Below, piece by piece: positions 3,017 to 18,948 of a DNA stretch of 64,000 bases (positions within the stretch are counted from its first letter, which is position 1; each line of letters opens with the position of its first letter). The translations under genes were made by a program, and so were the position numbers. The notes beneath the pieces are model-generated. The model did no database searches and had not been told where the DNA came from. It saw only the letters and a list, made by a program, of their open reading frames with translations. The stretch lies in assembly GCF_022559585.1 (NCBI RefSeq), contig NZ_CP087114.1, positions 1,157,095-1,221,094 on the forward strand. Direction: 5' to 3'. The stretch comes from Bartonella machadoae (GTDB lineage: Bacteria > Pseudomonadota > Alphaproteobacteria > Rhizobiales > Rhizobiaceae).

Positions 3017-3295
3017 TTAAGCAACCTTTTTAATAGGTTTTTCCCAATTCGGCTGGTAAGCTTTTAAAAAAGGATCTATCGCTGCGGGAAACTCTGAAGC
3101 TCCAAAGTCTGTAAGAACTGCTAAAATCTTTGTAATATTGGGCACTTCATCTTGAAGTTTCAAAATCAAAGCGTTTTCTACTATGCCCATAACCTCAACA
3201 AGTGCTTTACAGTCCTTATCTCCAATGCCTTGATGGTTAGAAAATTGAGATAGTACCATCCACAAATCGCATAAAAAATTGGTATCTACCTTCAT
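3017..3295 (-). CDS. Small prophage protein coupled to antirepressor (copy 1)
   Basis: A 92-residue protein of unknown function. Its ATG at 3295 overlaps the TGA of the upstream antirepressor (ATGA, 3292-3295), so it is translationally coupled. It is a clear paralogue of the gene at 4587-4865: both share FLCDLW near the N-terminus, ALILKLQDE in the middle, and a C-terminus ending in PIKKVA. The predicted fold is mostly helical, with no signal peptide or membrane segment. Constant pairing with an AntA-KilAC gene suggests it assists or modulates the antirepressor, which is inference only. Confidence 0.75.
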   Translation of the reverse strand: MKVDTNFLCDLWMVLSQFSNHQGIGDKDCKALVEVMGIVENALILKLQDEVPNITKILAVLTDFGASEFPAAIDPFLKAYQPNWEKPIKKVA

Positions 3296-4023
3296 TGCAC
3301 ACCTCCAAAGATTTGTTCTCTCAAGCAAGCCAATCCTCTGGATGTGATTTTTGTTGAAGGGAGCACCTTTTCTGTACCATCCGGTCTTTGAATTGTGATA
3401 GCAGGGCAATCCATGAGACCTTTTTTGATTTTATCCTGATAGGGTAACAAAGGAGCACTCGGAGCCCGTCGATAGACCCAATCATGTTTACGCAAGTAAT
3501 CGGTTAGATCTTTTGGTCGTATTTCTAACATTTTTGCAGATTCAATCAAACCAAACAGACCATCAGAGCGTTTTAAACCATCAAGTGCTTTGGCTTTGGG
3601 TTCTAACTCTGCAATTATGATGTCTTTACGTTCATTTTCGTTTTTTAGATGTGTTAAGACACCTAACATCACTTGAGGACTTGAGTAGTCAATCTGTGGT
3701 GTTGTTACCTGCTTTGCAAGTTTTTCACACTCAATAAAGTACTCTCTTGCTTGGTGCCCTTTTTCATTACGCTCAATCATGGCAAGGTGTTTAGCCATAT
3801 CTAACGTGAGAGCATAATCTTTAGAAGGACGTCCACCTGAACTTTCGCTCAAAAAAGAGCAAAAGTCATATCCTTCCTTAAATTTACAATCTTGAATGCG
3901 TCTGATAATCCAATCTTTAAAACTGGTTTTCACTTCCAAAAATGCATGTAGCTCACGTGCGTTGACTGTTTGAACAGTTTCCTGATCAATAACCCGTTCT
4001 TTAATTTCTATAAGAGTGTTCAT
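3292..4023 (-). CDS. Phage antirepressor, AntA + KilAC domains (copy 1)
   Basis: A 243-residue antirepressor. The N-terminal AntA/AntB domain (about 1-105) includes VQTVNARELHAFLEV, FKDWIIRRI, the LTLDMAKHLAMIERNEKGHQAREYFIECE block and the linker to [12 protein letters not shown]. The C-terminal KilAC (ANT) domain (about 125-243) contains KRSDGLFGLIESAKMLEIRPKDLTDYLRKHDWVYRR and GLMDCPAITI. Such proteins bind and inactivate prophage CI-type repressors. The KilAC part is almost identical in DNA to the neighbour at 4862, indicating recent duplication or gene conversion, while the AntA halves differ. It sits behind a structured leader (4024-4269) that would control translation. Confidence 0.9.
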   Translation of the reverse strand: MNTLIEIKERVIDQETVQTVNARELHAFLEVKTSFKDWIIRRIQDCKFKEGYDFCSFLSESSGGRPSKDYALTLDMAKHLAMIERNEKGHQAREYFIECEKLAKQVTTPQIDYSSPQVMLGVLTHLKNENERKDIIIAELEPKAKALDGLKRSDGLFGLIESAKMLEIRPKDLTDYLRKHDWVYRRAPSAPLLPYQDKIKKGLMDCPAITIQRPDGTEKVLPSTKITSRGLACLREQIFGGVQ

Positions 4024-4269
4024 GTGAACTCCTTATCGTTAGATGTTTTTCATTGACACTCTAAAGAGAGTGCCGGGCGCTGAAAAACACGGCGATAAGT
4101 CCGTCGTTACACTTTTCCCAAAAAGGTATTGTATAGTGTAACCACACCCGACAAAATCACTATATGCTACAAAGCATGTGATGAGTCAAAGTTTTTAAAT
4201 TTCGGCGGGAAGAGATTATTTCGGTAATCTATCCGCTTATCGTTCGGTGTTTTTCAGGCACCTGATTCG
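4024..4269 (-). ncRNA. Structured RNA leader of antirepressor, copy B (candidate translational switch)
   Basis: Conserved leader between promoter and antirepressor ATG. In transcript sense, P1a TGAAAAAC (4249-4256) pairs with P1b GTTTTTCA (4081-4088). P2a CGATAAG (4236-4242) pairs with P2b CTTATCG (4093-4099). The same two strands recur near the start codon as TGAAAAAC (4045-4052) and CGATAAG (4032-4038), the latter overlapping the AAGGAG ribosome site (4029-4034). P2b/P1b can therefore pair either with the 5' strands, leaving the ribosome site free, or with the 3' strands, masking it. Internal hairpins match copies A and C with compensatory base changes. Confidence 0.8.
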
Positions 4270-4586: not shown

Positions 4587-4865
4587 TTAAGCAACTTTTT
4601 TAATGGGGTTGTCCAAATCTGGTTCGTAAGCTTTCAATAAAGGCTCCATAATTGGAGGAGGTTTTAAAGTCCCAAAATTTGTAATCATTGCCAAAATCCT
4701 GAGTGCATTTGGTGATTCATCTTGAAGTTTTAAAATCAAAGCTTTTTCTATTGCATCCATGGTTTCAATGAGAGCATTAAAAGCCTTATCTTCAACATCA
4801 TCACGATCAGAAAACTGAAACAACGCCATCCACAAATCGCATAAAAAATCGATACTGGTATTCAT
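4587..4865 (-). CDS. Small prophage protein coupled to antirepressor (copy 2)
   Basis: A 92-residue paralogue of 3017-3295 with the same length, the same FLCDLWM and ALILKLQDE segments and the same PIKKVA end, but a diverged middle. The ATG at 4865 overlaps the stop of the antirepressor at 4862 (ATGA). The function is unknown. The repeated ATGA coupling to an antirepressor in both units argues that the pair works together. Confidence 0.75.
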   Translation of the reverse strand: MNTSIDFLCDLWMALFQFSDRDDVEDKAFNALIETMDAIEKALILKLQDESPNALRILAMITNFGTLKPPPIMEPLLKAYEPDLDNPIKKVA

Positions 4866-5605
4866 TGCACACCTCCATGGATTTGTTCTCTCAAGCAAGC
4901 CAATCCTCTGGATGTGATTTTTGTTGAAGGGAGCACCTTTTCTGTACCATCCGGTCTTTGAATAGTGATAGCAGGGCAATCCATAAGACCTTTCTTGATC
5001 TTGTCCTGATAGGGTAACAAAGGAGCACCCGGAGCCCTTCGATAGACCCAATCATGTTTACGTAAGTAATCGGTTAAGTCCTTTGGTCGTATTTCTAACA
5101 TTTTTGCAGATTCAATCAAACCAAACAGACCATCAGAGCGTTTTAAACCATCAAGTGCCTTTGCCTTGGGTTCTAACTCTGCAATTATGATGTCTTTACG
5201 TTCATTTTCGTTTTTTAGATGTGTTAAGACACCTAGCATCACTTGTGGACTTGAATAATCAACCTGTGGTGTGACTACCTGCTTTGCAAGTTTTTCACAT
5301 TCGATAAAGTACAAACGAGCTTCTCTACCTTTCTTATTGTTCTCAAGCATAGAAAGTTCTTTTGCTACACTTAAGGTGAGATAATAGTCTTTACGATTAT
5401 GACCACCTCTGCCTTTGCTCCCCAAAATCGGGGAGCAAACAAAGTCTTGATTTTCTAATAAATTATATTTGTTGATACGGTCAGTAATCCAAGTAGAGAA
5501 ATCTTTTCCTATTTCCAAAAAAACATGTAACTCACGAGCATTCACCGTCTGAACGGTATCTCCATCAATAGTGGTTTGATTTATATTAATTAAATATTGT
5601 GCCAT
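4862..5605 (-). CDS. Phage antirepressor, AntA + KilAC domains (copy 2)
   Basis: A 247-residue antirepressor. The AntA domain (about 1-108) carries VQTVNARELHVFLEIGKDFSTWITDRI and the LTLSVAKELSMLENNKKGREARLYFIECE block. It is clearly diverged from copy 1, including an insert around SKGRGGHNRKDYY. From the linker [12 protein letters not shown] onward the KilAC domain is nearly identical to copy 1. Its own leader (5606-5852) precedes it. Two antirepressors with different N-termini and one C-terminus suggest binding of different repressors through the variable half, or recombination between homologous prophages. Both explanations are inference. Confidence 0.9.
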   Translation of the reverse strand: MAQYLININQTTIDGDTVQTVNARELHVFLEIGKDFSTWITDRINKYNLLENQDFVCSPILGSKGRGGHNRKDYYLTLSVAKELSMLENNKKGREARLYFIECEKLAKQVVTPQVDYSSPQVMLGVLTHLKNENERKDIIIAELEPKAKALDGLKRSDGLFGLIESAKMLEIRPKDLTDYLRKHDWVYRRAPGAPLLPYQDKIKKGLMDCPAITIQRPDGTEKVLPSTKITSRGLACLREQIHGGVQ

Positions 5606-5852
5606 GATTTGGCTCCTGTGTAATTAAAAGTTTTTGATTCAACATCTCGTAAGAGTGCCGGGTGCTCAAAAACACGGTACACAGTCCGTCGTTATGCTTT
5701 TCCCATAAAGGGTATTGTATAGCATAACCACACCCGACAATGCATTATATGCGTGTAACATATAATGAGTCAAAGCTTTTAATTGGCGGAAAAAGATTGT
5801 TTCGGCAATCTACCCGCTGTGTATTTAAGGCGTTTCTGAGGCACCTGATTCG
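5606..5852 (-). ncRNA. Structured RNA leader of antirepressor, copy C (candidate translational switch)
   Basis: Same architecture as copies A and B. In transcript sense, P1a is TCAGAAAC (5832-5839) and P1b is GTTTTTGA (5666-5673). The downstream copy of P1a is TCAAAAAC (5630-5637). P2a TACACAG (5817-5823) pairs with P2b CTGTGTA (5678-5684). The 3' copy TACACAG (5616-5622) overlaps the AGGAG ribosome site (5613-5617), 7 nt before the ATG. The 7-mer differs from those of A and B, yet all three positions match within this copy. Confidence 0.8.
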
Positions 5853-14281: not shown

Positions 14282-14354
14282 GTACATTACGTACAATTTA
14301 AAATCAAGATAAAATCGTACACAATGAATTAAAAAAATAGTGGATAATGTACAG
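14282..14354. promoter_or_regulatory. cI/cro divergent operator region
   Basis: Three GTACA-type sites: GTACATTACGTAC (14282-14294, palindromic), CGTACACAATG (14316-14326), AATGTACAG (14346-14354). The last one ends at the repressor ATG at 14355. GATAAT at 14343-14348 is a possible -10 for the repressor, which would put the transcript start at or next to the ATG. Confidence 0.55.
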
Positions 14355-14972
14355 ATGACTTATTTGCCAAAAGATAGACTTAAAATAGCACGCAAGAATG
14401 CTGGGTATGCAACACCAAGTGAAGCTGCACGTGCTATACCAGCTTTGAATCAAAATACCCTAATTAGTCACGAAAATGGAAATCGTGGCATCTCACGCCA
14501 AATAGCAGAGCTATATGGACAAGTATTTAATGTAGATCCGGGATGGATTTTGTATGGCGAGTCTCCTCAAGAAAATCCTAGCCTCAATATAAGTATTCCT
14601 CTCATTTCATGGATTAGTGCCGGAGAGTTAAGCGAGCAGGATGGAATAATGGATTTTTCAGATTATCCTATGACAGAGGCTGTTAATCTTCCCGCCGGTG
14701 AATGGATTGCTTTACGTGTAGATGGCGCATCTATGAATAAAATTAGCCCTCCAGATTCTATAATATTTGTAAATATGCGAGATAAAAAACTTGTTCCTAA
14801 CGCCTGTTATGTAATAGCAGATGAATCTGGTCAAGCGACATATAAAAGATACAGGCCTAATGATAATCCTCCTTTTCAGCCCGCTTCATACGATAAGACT
14901 ATAAAAGCCCCAAAACTTGAAGGTGCTATCTCTATAATAGGTCGTGTACGACGCACTATTCTTGATATGTAA
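14355..14972 (+). CDS. Prophage CI-type repressor, XRE HTH + S24 (LexA) peptidase
   Basis: 205 residues from the ATG at 14355; a GTG at 14340 would add five. The N-terminal XRE helix-turn-helix (about 6-60) includes RLKIARKNAGYATPSEAARAI and LISHENGNRGIS. The C-terminal LexA-type domain has an Ala-Gly cleavage motif (ISAGELSE, about 89-90), the catalytic Ser in VDGASMNK (about 126) and the catalytic Lys in ATYKRY (about 164). It maintains lysogeny and should self-cleave with RecA after DNA damage. The four antirepressor genes nearby are its likely antagonists. Confidence 0.9.
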   Translation: MTYLPKDRLKIARKNAGYATPSEAARAIPALNQNTLISHENGNRGISRQIAELYGQVFNVDPGWILYGESPQENPSLNISIPLISWISAGELSEQDGIMDFSDYPMTEAVNLPAGEWIALRVDGASMNKISPPDSIIFVNMRDKKLVPNACYVIADESGQATYKRYRPNDNPPFQPASYDKTIKAPKLEGAISIIGRVRRTILDM

Positions 14973-15629: not shown

Positions 15630-16358
15630 ATGCATAATCTTGTCACAACAGCAGAAAGTACTTTTAAGAACGAAGCTATTCAAACCATGTCGAGTCGTGA
15701 AATTGCAGAATTGTGTAGTAAACAGCATGCACATATTATGCGTGATATTCGACAAATGTTAGGAGAATTGTACCCTGAAGGGGGTCAATCCAAATTTGGA
15801 TCGACCTATTTAGACACACAAGGTAGACCTCAAAATTGTTATAATCTTCCCAAGCGCGAATGTTTAATCCTCGTCTCAGGTTACAGCACAGCATTACGAG
15901 CAAAGATCATAGATCGTTGGCAACAATTAGAACAGCAAGTAATGGCACCGCAAATCGATTACTCTAGTCCACAAGTCATGTTAGGGGTTTTAAATTATCT
16001 CAAAAATGAGAATGAACAAAAAGACAATATGATTGCAGAATTAAAACCAAAGGCAATGGCTCTTGAAAGTTTACAGCGCCATGAGGGTCTTTTCGGTCTT
16101 ACTGAAGTTGCTAAAATACTCGAAATGCAACCAAAACAGTTCATTCTCTTCTTACAGCAAAAGGGTTGGGTCTATCGACGCATGGCAAATGGGCATCTGT
16201 TGCCTTATCAAGACAAAATCCAAAAAGGTCTGATGGATTGTCCTACCATCACTATTCAAACGTCTGGCGGAATAAATAAAGTCATTCCTTCAGCAAAAAT
16301 CACAACAAAAGGCATTGGTGTGCTTTCTCAAGAACTTAAAAGACAAAGCATGCATTAA
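15630..16358 (+). CDS. Phage antirepressor, Rha + KilAC domains
   Basis: 242 residues. The N-terminal Rha-type domain (about 15-110) has [40 protein letters not shown] and [19 protein letters not shown]. The linker [12 protein letters not shown] is shared with the AntA paralogues. The C-terminal KilAC domain (about 125-242) has [33 protein letters not shown] and [10 protein letters not shown]. It is thus a different N-terminal module on the same C-terminal module. Unlike the AntA genes, no structured switch leader precedes it; only an intrinsic terminator lies upstream. Confidence 0.9.
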
Positions 16359-16370
16359 GGGGTGACCATC

Positions 16371-16439
16371 ATGGAAAAGAAATATAAGCGGTTTGATAAA
16401 ATAAACCTAATTTATTTACGTGGGTTTGCTAATTTTTTA
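16371..16439 (+). pseudogene. 5' stub of a YdcK-like gene
   Basis: ATG at 16371 opens MEKKYKRFDKINLIYLR, matching the start of the beta-helix gene at 17801 (MEKKYEFTDEIDIVYRR). The match ends where the antirepressor promoter and leader begin, as if a leader-antirepressor unit was inserted or recombined here. Onward translation through the leader is not credible as a gene. Confidence 0.45.
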
Positions 16440-16440
16440 T

Positions 16441-16470
16441 TTGACAAGATAATGTCATTATGTCTATTGT
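16441..16470 (+). promoter_or_regulatory. Promoter of antirepressor leader, copy A
   Basis: TTGACA (16441-16446), 18-nt spacer, TATTGT (16465-16470), directly followed by CGAATCAGG, the conserved leader start. Confidence 0.65.
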
Positions 16471-16715
16471 CGAATCAGGTGCCTCAAAAACACCTTAAGC
16501 AAACAGCGGATAGATTGCCGAAACAATCTTTCTTCCGCACATTAAAGACTTTGACTCATTCTATGCTACACGCATATAATGATCCCGTCGGGTGTGGTTA
16601 TGCTATACAATACCCTTTATGGGGAAAGCATAACGACGGACTGTTTGCCGTGTTTTTGAGCACCCGGCACTCTTTTAGAGTGTCAATCAAAAACGTCTAA
16701 CAAACAGGAGTTCAC
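16471..16715 (+). ncRNA. Structured RNA leader of antirepressor, copy A (candidate translational switch)
   Basis: P1: GGTGCCTCAAAAACAC (16478-16493) with GTGTTTTTGAGCACC (16650-16664). P2: CAAACAG (16500-16506) with CTGTTTG (16641-16647). P3: AGATTG/CAATCT (16512-16517/16524-16529) inside CGGA/TCCG. A small hairpin TATGC/GCATA (16562-16576). P4: CCGTCG (16585-16590) plus TTATGCT (16598-16604) with AGCATAA-CGACGG (16627-16639). The P1a and P2a cores recur as TCAAAAAC (16687-16694) and CAAACAG (16701-16707), the latter overlapping the AGGAG ribosome site (16706-16710), 5 nt before the ATG. The 3' closing strand can therefore choose between the 5' strands and the ribosome-site strands. Confidence 0.82.
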
Positions 16716-17117
16716 ATGAACACTTTAATTAAAATATCAGAAAAAGTTATTGATCAGGAAACAGTTCAAACGGTTGATGCACGTGAATTGTACACGTTTT
16801 TAGAAGTCAACTCTAAATTTGCAGACTGGATTGTACGTCGTATTAATGAATATGGATTTTTGGAAAATCAAGATTTTGGTTTTACGTTTCTCAAAAATGA
16901 GAAACGTAAAAATGTTATAAGTAAAGAATACCACCTTACCTTAGACATGGCGAAAGAACTTTCTATGGTTGAGAGAAATGAGAAAGGCAGGCAAGCTCGT
17001 CGTTACTTTATTGAGTGTGAAAAGAAACTAAGAAACCAAGCTGTTGATTATAATGGGGTCACGACCATCACGAATAACAAAACGCCATTGGGTTGCCAAT
17101 TCACGGGCTTGTTTTAA
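16716..17117 (+). pseudogene. Truncated AntA antirepressor (copy 3)
   Basis: The AntA domain is intact for about 107 residues (VQTVDARELYTFLEV, ADWIVRRINEYGF, LTLDMAKELSMVERNEKGRQARRYFIECEKK). The frame then runs into an antisense integrase fragment near 17035 and stops at 17117, so the KilAC domain is missing. The intact upstream leader and promoter suggest the truncation is recent. An isolated AntA domain might still act, but loss of function is more likely. Confidence 0.8.
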
Positions 17118-17297
17118 AGAGACATCTCTTAAAGCACCCAAGCCCATCTCACGACGCCGCCCGTGAATGGTATATCGATAAATCCATTGAGCACCCCCAT
17201 CTTTACGCTTATGAAGTACCAAGCCGGCACCATCATTATATTTGCCAGCCCCCAATGTTGCGACAGCCCTTGCATTAAGACGATTCATTAAAGGCAT
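17028..17297 (-). pseudogene. Integrase N-terminal fragment (DUF4102-type), repeat copy A
   Basis: An 89-residue frame, MPLMNRLNARAVATLGAGKY at the start, with GAQWIYRYTIHGRRREMGLGALRDVSLKQAREL. This is the N-terminal arm-binding (DUF4102) domain of P4-type tyrosine integrases. It ends abruptly inside the broken antirepressor gene. It has no catalytic domain. It is unrelated in sequence to the intact integrase at 20758. It is the best preserved of four copies. Confidence 0.8.
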
Positions 17298-17800: not shown

Positions 17801-18472
17801 ATGGAAAAGAAATACGAATTTACTGATGAAATCGATATAGTTTATAGGCGTAAGGTTCGCCGTATTCGTGCATTGAAAAACTTTGGTGATATTAAAGCTG
17901 GTGATTTAGGCGGTTTTATAGAGCATGAAGGCAATTTAAGCCATGAGGGGGATTGTTGGGTTGGGGACAATGCTTGTGTTTCTCATAGTGCTAAAGTTTG
18001 CGGTAATGCAAGAGTATTTGAAAAAGCACGCATTGCAGACAGAGCATATATTAGTGACAATGCAAATGTTTTTGGAAATGCTTGTATTGAATCTGAAGCG
18101 TGTATTTTAAATAAAGCAAAAGTTTACGGAAAAGCAGAAGTCTTTGATAATGCTATGGTTTGCGATAATGCACAAGTTTTCGGTAATGCGGTAGTTTGTG
18201 GCAAGTCTCATATTTATGGTTATGCACAAGTTTACAACAAAGCACGCGTTCACGACCAAGCTAAGATTTATGGCAAAGCACGTGTTTACGGTCAAGCCAA
18301 GGTTTATGAGAAAGCACGTGTCTATAATAATGCAGAAGTTTATGAAAATGCAAAAGTTAAGGGTAGGGCAGAGGTTTACGCTCTTGGAAAGATTTATGGA
18401 GATGCATGTGTTTGTTGGAACGCATGTATTGGCGGCAATCAGTCCATCTCAACTGGAGAAAAAACCATATGA
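17801..18472 (+). CDS. YdcK-like parallel beta-helix protein (copy 1)
   Basis: 223 residues. The N-terminal motif VRRIRALKNFGDIKAGDLGGFIEHEGNLSHEGDCWVGDNA is typical of a YdcK-like family found in many prophages. It is followed by about 14 hexapeptide-like repeats of the form [AV]-x-V-x-G/N-x-A (e.g. AKVYGKAEVFDNAMVCDNAQVFGNA), predicting a left-handed parallel beta-helix. The role is unknown. No acyltransferase catalytic residues are evident. It overlaps the next paralogue by 4 bp (ATGA), so the two are co-translated. Confidence 0.8.
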   Translation: MEKKYEFTDEIDIVYRRKVRRIRALKNFGDIKAGDLGGFIEHEGNLSHEGDCWVGDNACVSHSAKVCGNARVFEKARIADRAYISDNANVFGNACIESEACILNKAKVYGKAEVFDNAMVCDNAQVFGNAVVCGKSHIYGYAQVYNKARVHDQAKIYGKARVYGQAKVYEKARVYNNAEVYENAKVKGRAEVYALGKIYGDACVCWNACIGGNQSISTGEKTI

Positions 18473-18948
18473 AAAAATACGAATTTACTGGTGAAACAAT
18501 AGAGGTTTCTAGTAGAACTCTTCGCCGTGTCCGTGCATTGCAAGACTTTGGTGATGTAAAAAAAGGAGATTTAGGCGGTTGGATAGAAAAGGAAAAGAAC
18601 CTCAGTCACGAAGGTAATTGTTGGGTTGGAGGCGATGCTAAGGTTTATGGTGATGCTCAGATTTATGGTGATGCCGATGTTAGCGGCGATACCTATGTTT
18701 ATGGCAATGCCAAGGTTTATGGTAGTGCAAAAGTTACAGGGAGTGCGCACATTTATCAAAATGCACAAGTTTATGATCATGCTACTGTAGCAGGCGCTTT
18801 TTTGAAAAGTGTTGAGATTTTTGGAGATGCACAAGTTTATGATAGTGCTTGCATTTATGACGAAGTCAAGATTTTTAGAAATGCTAAGGTTTGTGGATTG
18901 GCTCTCATTTGCGGAAACACGAGAATTCCTCAAGACATAAAAATTTAG
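18469..18948 (+). CDS. YdcK-like parallel beta-helix protein (copy 2)
   Basis: 159 residues from the ATG at 18469, with GGAG upstream. It has the same N-terminal signature (LRRVRALQDFGDVKKGDLGGWIEKEKNLSHEGNCWVGGDA) and about nine repeats (KVYGDAQIYGDADVSGD, KVYGSAKVTGSAHIYQNA). It is a tandem paralogue of the preceding gene with fewer repeats. Variable repeat number is expected for such tandem hexapeptide genes. Confidence 0.8.
   Translation: MKKYEFTGETIEVSSRTLRRVRALQDFGDVKKGDLGGWIEKEKNLSHEGNCWVGGDAKVYGDAQIYGDADVSGDTYVYGNAKVYGSAKVTGSAHIYQNAQVYDHATVAGAFLKSVEIFGDAQVYDSACIYDEVKIFRNAKVCGLALICGNTRIPQDIKI

Follow-up and report, generated by a model that had tools for sequence, protein, structure and literature searches.

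A probable C4-type antisense RNA cassette that would gate translation of a prophage antirepressor in Bartonella machadoae

Several small RNAs linked to phage antirepressors or to Bartonella regulators provide a background for the locus described here. C4 is an antisense RNA of phages P1 and P7 that acts in trans and confers superinfection immunity. It is a precedent for the gating of an antirepressor (PMC5320573). In the phage P1 record, putative a1 and b1 sites are annotated, followed by the C4 RNA and then by a2 and b2 in front of icd and ant. Rfam places C4 (RF01695) and c4-a1b1 (RF03163) in the same clan, CL00128. A precedent for a decoy-like activator is IsrK (RF01394), encoded at the 5′ end of an antirepressor operon in the Salmonella prophage Gifsy-1, which opens translation in trans, raising that of the anrP antirepressor about 140-fold through mutually exclusive pairings (PMC4825925). 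IsrK works via a short leader ORF (orf45), and the accessible part of that report does not mention an RF02221-like core (PMC4825925). Against the isrK model, whose cut-off is 50, the a1/b1 stretch of P1 fell short at 35.1 bits. RF02221 (sRNA-Xcc1), which is assigned to no clan, was described in Xanthomonas as an sRNA for which many targets are predicted, and was mapped there as an 88-nt species (PMC2996969); it was also reported in integron cassettes upstream of symE (PMC12444791). The accessible text of the two papers treats it as a virulence or integron sRNA and mentions neither a decoy nor a ribosome-site target (PMC2996969, PMC12444791). A search of the open-access literature by title or start of the abstract, a scope outside which subscription papers mostly fall, returned no link between RF02221 and C4. 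In Bartonella itself, Tu et al. (2016) reported Brt RNAs upstream of HTH (trp) genes. They counted 34 copies in B. tribocorum CIP 105476, and 9 in B. henselae Houston-1 that lie within 277 kb (PMC5387305).

We analyzed positions 16471-16715 of a 64,000-nt stretch of Bartonella machadoae DNA (contig NZ_CP087114.1; the whole stretch is called the window, and all coordinates refer to it). Sequence comparison and predicted folds suggest, with a probability of roughly 0.87, that this locus is a C4-type antisense cassette gating translation of a prophage antirepressor. The layout of its sequence, its predicted structure and the three-way covariation of its pairing elements are directly supported. 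The cassette would consist of three modules with a common code (Table 1): a 5′ decoy, with a1 followed by b1, that imitates the target; an antisense RNA of about 90 nt whose b′ sits in the loop of a hairpin and whose a′ is single-stranded; and the target itself, with a2 followed by b2 on the ribosome site. The repeated CAAACAG, the CTGTTTG complementary to it and the TTGACA box all lie where the initial annotation had placed them, and TCAAAAAC, reported just before the gene, occurs there and again inside P1. P1 and P2, the helices that had been drawn as closing the leader, are both closed in its minimum-energy fold. For the 260-nt leader, the predicted folding energy is -81.8 kcal/mol (z -6.58), a value that none of 200 shuffled versions equalled.

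Table 1. Positions of the features of the antisense cassette and of the two further cassettes in the window.
Feature	Position	Strand	Details
Leader promoter-like site, TTGACA-18-TATTGT	16441..16470	+	10/12 consensus positions
Decoy site a1 (TCAAAAAC)	16484..16491	+	within small hairpin GGTG...CACC, 16478-16493
Decoy site b1 (CAAACAG)	16500..16506	+	followed by CGG
Decoy 3′ hairpin (P3 of the initial annotation)	16506..16538	+	
Internal promoter-like site, TTGACT-18-TATAAT	16551..16580	+	11/12 consensus positions; 6 nt upstream of the antisense core
Antisense RNA core, RF02221-like, about 90 nt	16587..16676	+	outer stem 16587-16594 with 16661-16668
Antisense loop b′ (CTGTTTG)	16641..16647	+	
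Antisense single strand a′ (GTTTTTGA)	16652..16659	+	
Small hairpin between core and target (CACTCTTTTAGAGTG)	16668..16682	+	
Target site a2 (TCAAAAAC)	16687..16694	+	
Target site b2 overlapping ribosome site AGGAG	16701..16710	+	CAAACAG at 16701-16707
Gated gene, AntA-domain antirepressor	16716..17117	+	133 aa; no KilAC match
Second cassette	5616..5823	-	b1 5817-5823, b′ 5678-5684, a2 5631-5637, b2 5616-5622; no exact a1; code CTGTGTA; gene 4862-5605 (AntA + KilAC, 247 aa)
Third cassette	4032..4256	-	a1 4250-4256, b1 4236-4242, b′ 4093-4099, a2 4046-4052, b2 4032-4038; code CTTATCG; gene 3292-4023 (AntA + KilAC, 243 aa)

The order of the elements is the one annotated in the P1 record. By eye, P1 C4 also follows the same plan, with an outer stem that encloses two hairpins, b′ in the loop of the second and a′ in the strand that comes next; as seen by eye, CGG likewise follows the b1 seven-mer of P1, the annotated 8-base b1 including the C. 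As in C4, a′ and b′ are complementary to a2 and b2, b2 lies on the ribosome site of an antirepressor gene, and copies of the target, a1 and b1, are present upstream. Several differences were noted. The first inner hairpin, a conserved AUACAAUACCC/GGGG hairpin of the core (AUACAAUACCC...GGGGAA), stands here in place of the UUCG hairpin of C4; unlike in C4, a strong promoter-like site immediately precedes the core of this copy; and the small gene icd lies between b2 and ant in P1, whereas here the antirepressor gene follows b2 directly. The Rfam C4 model gave no match at E 10 in 16350-16800, and at its gathering score it matched none of 19 wider loci scanned, 18 of which matched RF02221. Membership of the Rfam C4 family, as judged by the model, is rejected, and because the model matches neither this locus nor the 19 wider loci, the likeness to C4 is limited to layout and logic; common descent appears likely rather than proven.

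The internal promoter-like site matches the consensus better than that of the leader (11 versus 10 of 12 positions); of the 63 Bartonella copies aligned, 38 have TTGACT in its place and 28 have TATAAT. The hairpin or dyad at 16562-16576, previously labelled P4, overlaps the -10 box of this site. This dyad keeps its pairing across copies and may act as an operator for a repressor or as a hairpin in the RNA. A scan of 16300-16760 revealed no intrinsic terminator between the core and the gene.

The short antisense RNA would arise from the internal promoter, from cutting of a longer transcript, or from both. Acting in cis or in trans, it would block ribosomes by pairing with the a2 and b2 sites on the antirepressor mRNA, and the resulting lack of antirepressor translation would keep the prophage silent. 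By contrast, a transcript from the leader promoter would carry the decoy, which would pair with the antisense part and leave the ribosome site free. Promoter choice and the decoy:antisense ratio would thus set the gate, and the likely trigger would be an RNA, whether through promoter firing, through how much decoy is made, or through an antisense RNA of another prophage that matches. In the predicted fold of the short RNA (16587-16676), b′ is unpaired at 0.83 and a′ at 0.99, and the predicted 5′ decoy fragment leaves a1 largely free (0.87 unpaired). In the long leader transcript the decoy is predicted to pair with the antisense part, with the ribosome site unpaired at 0.67 (0.62 for the target stretch alone), whereas in the internal-promoter transcript the antisense part is predicted to pair with the target, with the ribosome site unpaired at 0.28. 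Two ideas of the initial annotation are supported, namely that alternative pairings free or mask the ribosome site and that an RNA layer would lie on top of the repressor.

To assess the two pairings in evolution, we used an alignment of 63 Bartonella copies, 3 target-less copies of 66 having been left out. The 5′ (decoy) pairing was present in 95.7% of cells with 191 double-change cells, and the 3′ (target) pairing in 90.8% of cells with 176 double-change cells, some rows of the latter being one base off. The decoy helices reached a covariation score of 0.470 (shuffled mean 0.115; best slid version 0.084) and the target helices one of 0.443 (shuffled mean 0.142; best slid version 0.077). Further pair types showed no excess over shuffles, the observed value being reached by 389 of 500 shuffles for the decoy and 260 of 500 for the target, and the number of target-helix pairs with a double change was reached by 66 of 500; one of five measures failed to beat the shuffles for the decoy pairing and two of five for the target pairing. 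Both helices covary, indicating that the two mutually exclusive pairings of one strand, described at the outset, are real, and both exclusive states have evidently been kept together in evolution, as judged from the sequences. Covariation was also seen in the core stems, helix H2 aside, in the hairpin of the decoy and in the one that overlies the internal -10 box.

An alignment-free test compared the loop 7-mer (CTNNNNN) with its exact reverse complement in 30 distinct copies from the genome of the window. The complement was found in the 5′ leader of 27, at the ribosome site of 26 and at both places in 25; when one copy per loop was kept, both sites matched in 17 of 20, whereas permuted loops averaged 0.84 and never exceeded 5. 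The sample was then enlarged, among the matches listed, by 30 loci from the RF02221 search and 60 places spread over genomes, giving 115 distinct Bartonella copies after 5 cut by the end of a stretch and 6 lacking the motif had been left out. In this sample the exact decoy was present in 104 copies and absent in 11, the exact target was present in 101 and absent in 14, and both were present in 94. The 104 units with a target (at most one mismatch) carry 37 distinct loop 7-mers and 77 loop-plus-a′ codes, and the variable b positions amount to 1.5 bits each versus 0.31 elsewhere in the core. No part of the cassette varies more than the pairing elements, and these change together. Repeat homogenisation or gene conversion could add to the three-way identity.

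Variable a and b elements would give each cassette its own specificity. In a simple two-site energy sum, the cognate target was the best one for 27 of 29 codes of the same genome, and 9 of 812 non-cognate pairs came within 1 kcal/mol. The exact two-site target of the 16471-16715 copy occurs once in its own genome, and each of the two further window cassettes, both on the minus strand, has its own loop code.

Two folds that are stable and exclusive would also suit a leader acting in cis only, which would flip between a decoy-paired (on) and a target-paired (off) state upon binding of a ligand or protein or in response to heat, with no RNA acting in trans. We regard such a leader as improbable, considering that the antisense part is a self-standing fold with its own promoter-like site, that it resembles the 88-nt Xanthomonas RNA (PMC2996969), that 11 of the 115 Bartonella copies keep it without a matching target alongside (several of these run into the promoter region of another unit), and that no pocket was identified. 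The initial annotation had proposed a riboswitch, thermosensor or protein-sensing leader. This part of its interpretation is not supported, the shared strand probably being the active part of a compact antisense RNA. We reject a ligand, heat or protein sensor as the first reading, since variation in the cassette is concentrated in the pairing blocks, which covary, and since no pocket was identified. Its observation is confirmed and its interpretation partly supported.

Analysis of the window with Rfam at the models' own cut-offs returned only two tRNAs. At a relaxed threshold, 16587-16676 matched RF02221 over the whole length of the model (positions 1-87 of 87; 50.1 bits, E 4.4e-8), missing the cut-off of 53 bits by 2.9 bits; matches to the mir-223, SNORD101, Yar_1 and mir-1231 models were taken as chance. 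The same genome gave 41 BLAST matches to the leader and 43 matches to RF02221, the best copy scoring 57.1 bits. Across the genus, the covariance-model search called for in the initial annotation found RF02221 at E 0.001 in 50 of 71 Bartonella genomes, its own included, and above the cut-off in 38, whereas none of 14 control genomes matched. BLAST of the leader gave no match in phages and 5 plasmid records, all from Bartonella.

We then scanned viral contigs and named bacterial genomes for the conserved ATACAATACCC...GGGGAA motif and obtained at least 201 anchors from 120 viral and 116 genome stretches, edge-cut and duplicate anchors being left out. The wider set comprises 165 of 201 anchors among the matches listed, 36 having failed the outer-stem or hairpin rule; about 20 of the 165 listed loci are Bartonella-like by motif. 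Among these 165 listed loci, the loop matched a site just before a start codon over at least 6 bases in 104 (control 4.1%) and over at least 7 bases in 79 (control 0.95%), a′ had a downstream match of at least 6 bases in 69.1% (control 12.7%), and an upstream decoy matched over at least 7 bases in 81 (control 3.0%). Loop matches of fewer than 5 bases were seen in 40 of the 165 listed loci, which are either mis-parsed loops with a visible target or target-less or chance anchors. Because the matches of the loop to the ribosome site and to the decoy are far above the controls in these loci, the RF02221 family is probably C4-like.

For the 81 decoys of the wider set listed, CGG followed the decoy in 77 (8.5% at a random place), a1 lay at most 45 nt upstream in 62 (3 with the a′ of another locus), and a run of five T preceded the core in 68, a figure that has no control. 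On account of the CGG, the nearby a1 and the T run, the decoy looks like a separate module that may have a terminator to itself. With regard to the RNase P processing of C4 at the 5′ end of its outer stem, an RCC end, which is RNase P-like in sequence only, follows the stem in 90 of the 151 scorable wider loci listed and in 26 of the 63 aligned Bartonella copies; here the end is ACU.

Antirepressor-type domains were the commonest matches among the 112 downstream proteins of the wider set listed: Bro-N in 20, P22_AR_C in 15, Rha in 14, KilA-N in 12, P22_AR_N in 11 and AntA in 11, one protein possibly counting repeatedly. In the genome of the window, 29 downstream proteins included AntA in 11, Rha in 4, KilAC in 10 (overlapping) and a YdcK beta-solenoid in 12; since AntA or Rha was found in 15 of the 29, antirepressors account for a little over half.

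Direct and inverted repeats crowded within 250 bp, with a dyad over the internal -10 box, might alternatively be read as mainly DNA-level repeats, kept alike by gene conversion or serving as protein binding sites, with no RNA function. This is highly improbable, given that in many of the wider loci listed the variable element directly precedes a start codon and also occupies the loop of a hairpin, and that the core stems covary. Least probable of all is that the cassette belongs to the Brt family and acts as an attenuator for the downstream regulator: both are multicopy RNAs of about 200 nt (194-203 nt for Brt) with a stable fold, upstream of small regulator genes in one genus (PMC5387305), but a different RNA that precedes an HTH gene numbers 34 copies in one Bartonella genome and, in another, 9 within a span of 277 kb, and on plasmid pBGR3 it adjoins, and is divergent from, a copy like 16471-16715. 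The Brt link raised initially is therefore not borne out and Brt identity is rejected, as the copy numbers that fit Brt belong to that other sequence, and since these counts equal those of Tu et al., Brt is very probably that HTH-linked RNA.

If the C4-type reading holds, RF02221 acquires a testable function, that of an antisense RNA against the ribosome site of antirepressors with a matching decoy, and becomes tied to the textbook C4 RNA of P1. The at least 77 two-site RNA codes found in one genus would form a natural library for the study of specificity, crosstalk and prophage immunity. A resident prophage with a matching antisense RNA could also silence this antirepressor when it arrives on an incoming prophage. 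For the 11 target-less units, the loop recurs in complete units elsewhere in 10 cases and the full code in 8, a recurrence expected in part because the units share one code pool, and these units fit either decay from complete units or retained immunity. A bolder and rather doubtful idea is that RF02221 represents a second, widespread C4-like class with a hypervariable two-site phage-immunity code, of which genomes such as this one would keep dozens of versions, and in which target-less units would be stored immunity against invaders' antirepressors of the same code. Were it true, the stored forms would be units of decoy plus antisense part, placed in tandem before a complete unit or in Xanthomonas loci. 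At two Xanthomonas RF02221 loci (L220 and L228), inspection by eye showed a decoy with a strong terminator-like hairpin and a T run behind it, and no obvious target site at the next gene.

The product of the gated gene matches the AntA domain, in agreement with its initial naming as an antirepressor. The two closest copies (L002 and L003) encode proteins of 175 aa that also have AntA only, without KilAC, and KilAC is kept in scanned copies of 239-247 aa. Because the gated gene is short (133 aa, AntA only), this copy (16471-17117) may be decaying; its three sites still match exactly. An ORF on the minus strand (17028-17297) overlaps the end of the antirepressor gene. Prophage markers around the locus include an S24-type protein (14340-14972), a Rha/KilAC antirepressor (15630-16358) and, further on, ERF and YqaJ recombination genes. 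This second antirepressor lies immediately upstream of the cassette, and the BLAST matches included no RNA copy before it.

YdcK-like beta-solenoid genes stand behind the RNA in 12 of the 29 copies of the same genome (for example among L024-L039). The window contains two such genes (starting at 17801 and 18406; 17801-18948), where the leader gave no BLAST match. On pBGR3 (L315:518-1723), two multicopy regulatory RNAs lie face to face: a probable Brt RNA and its HTH gene diverge from a cassette copy that has a beta-solenoid gene.
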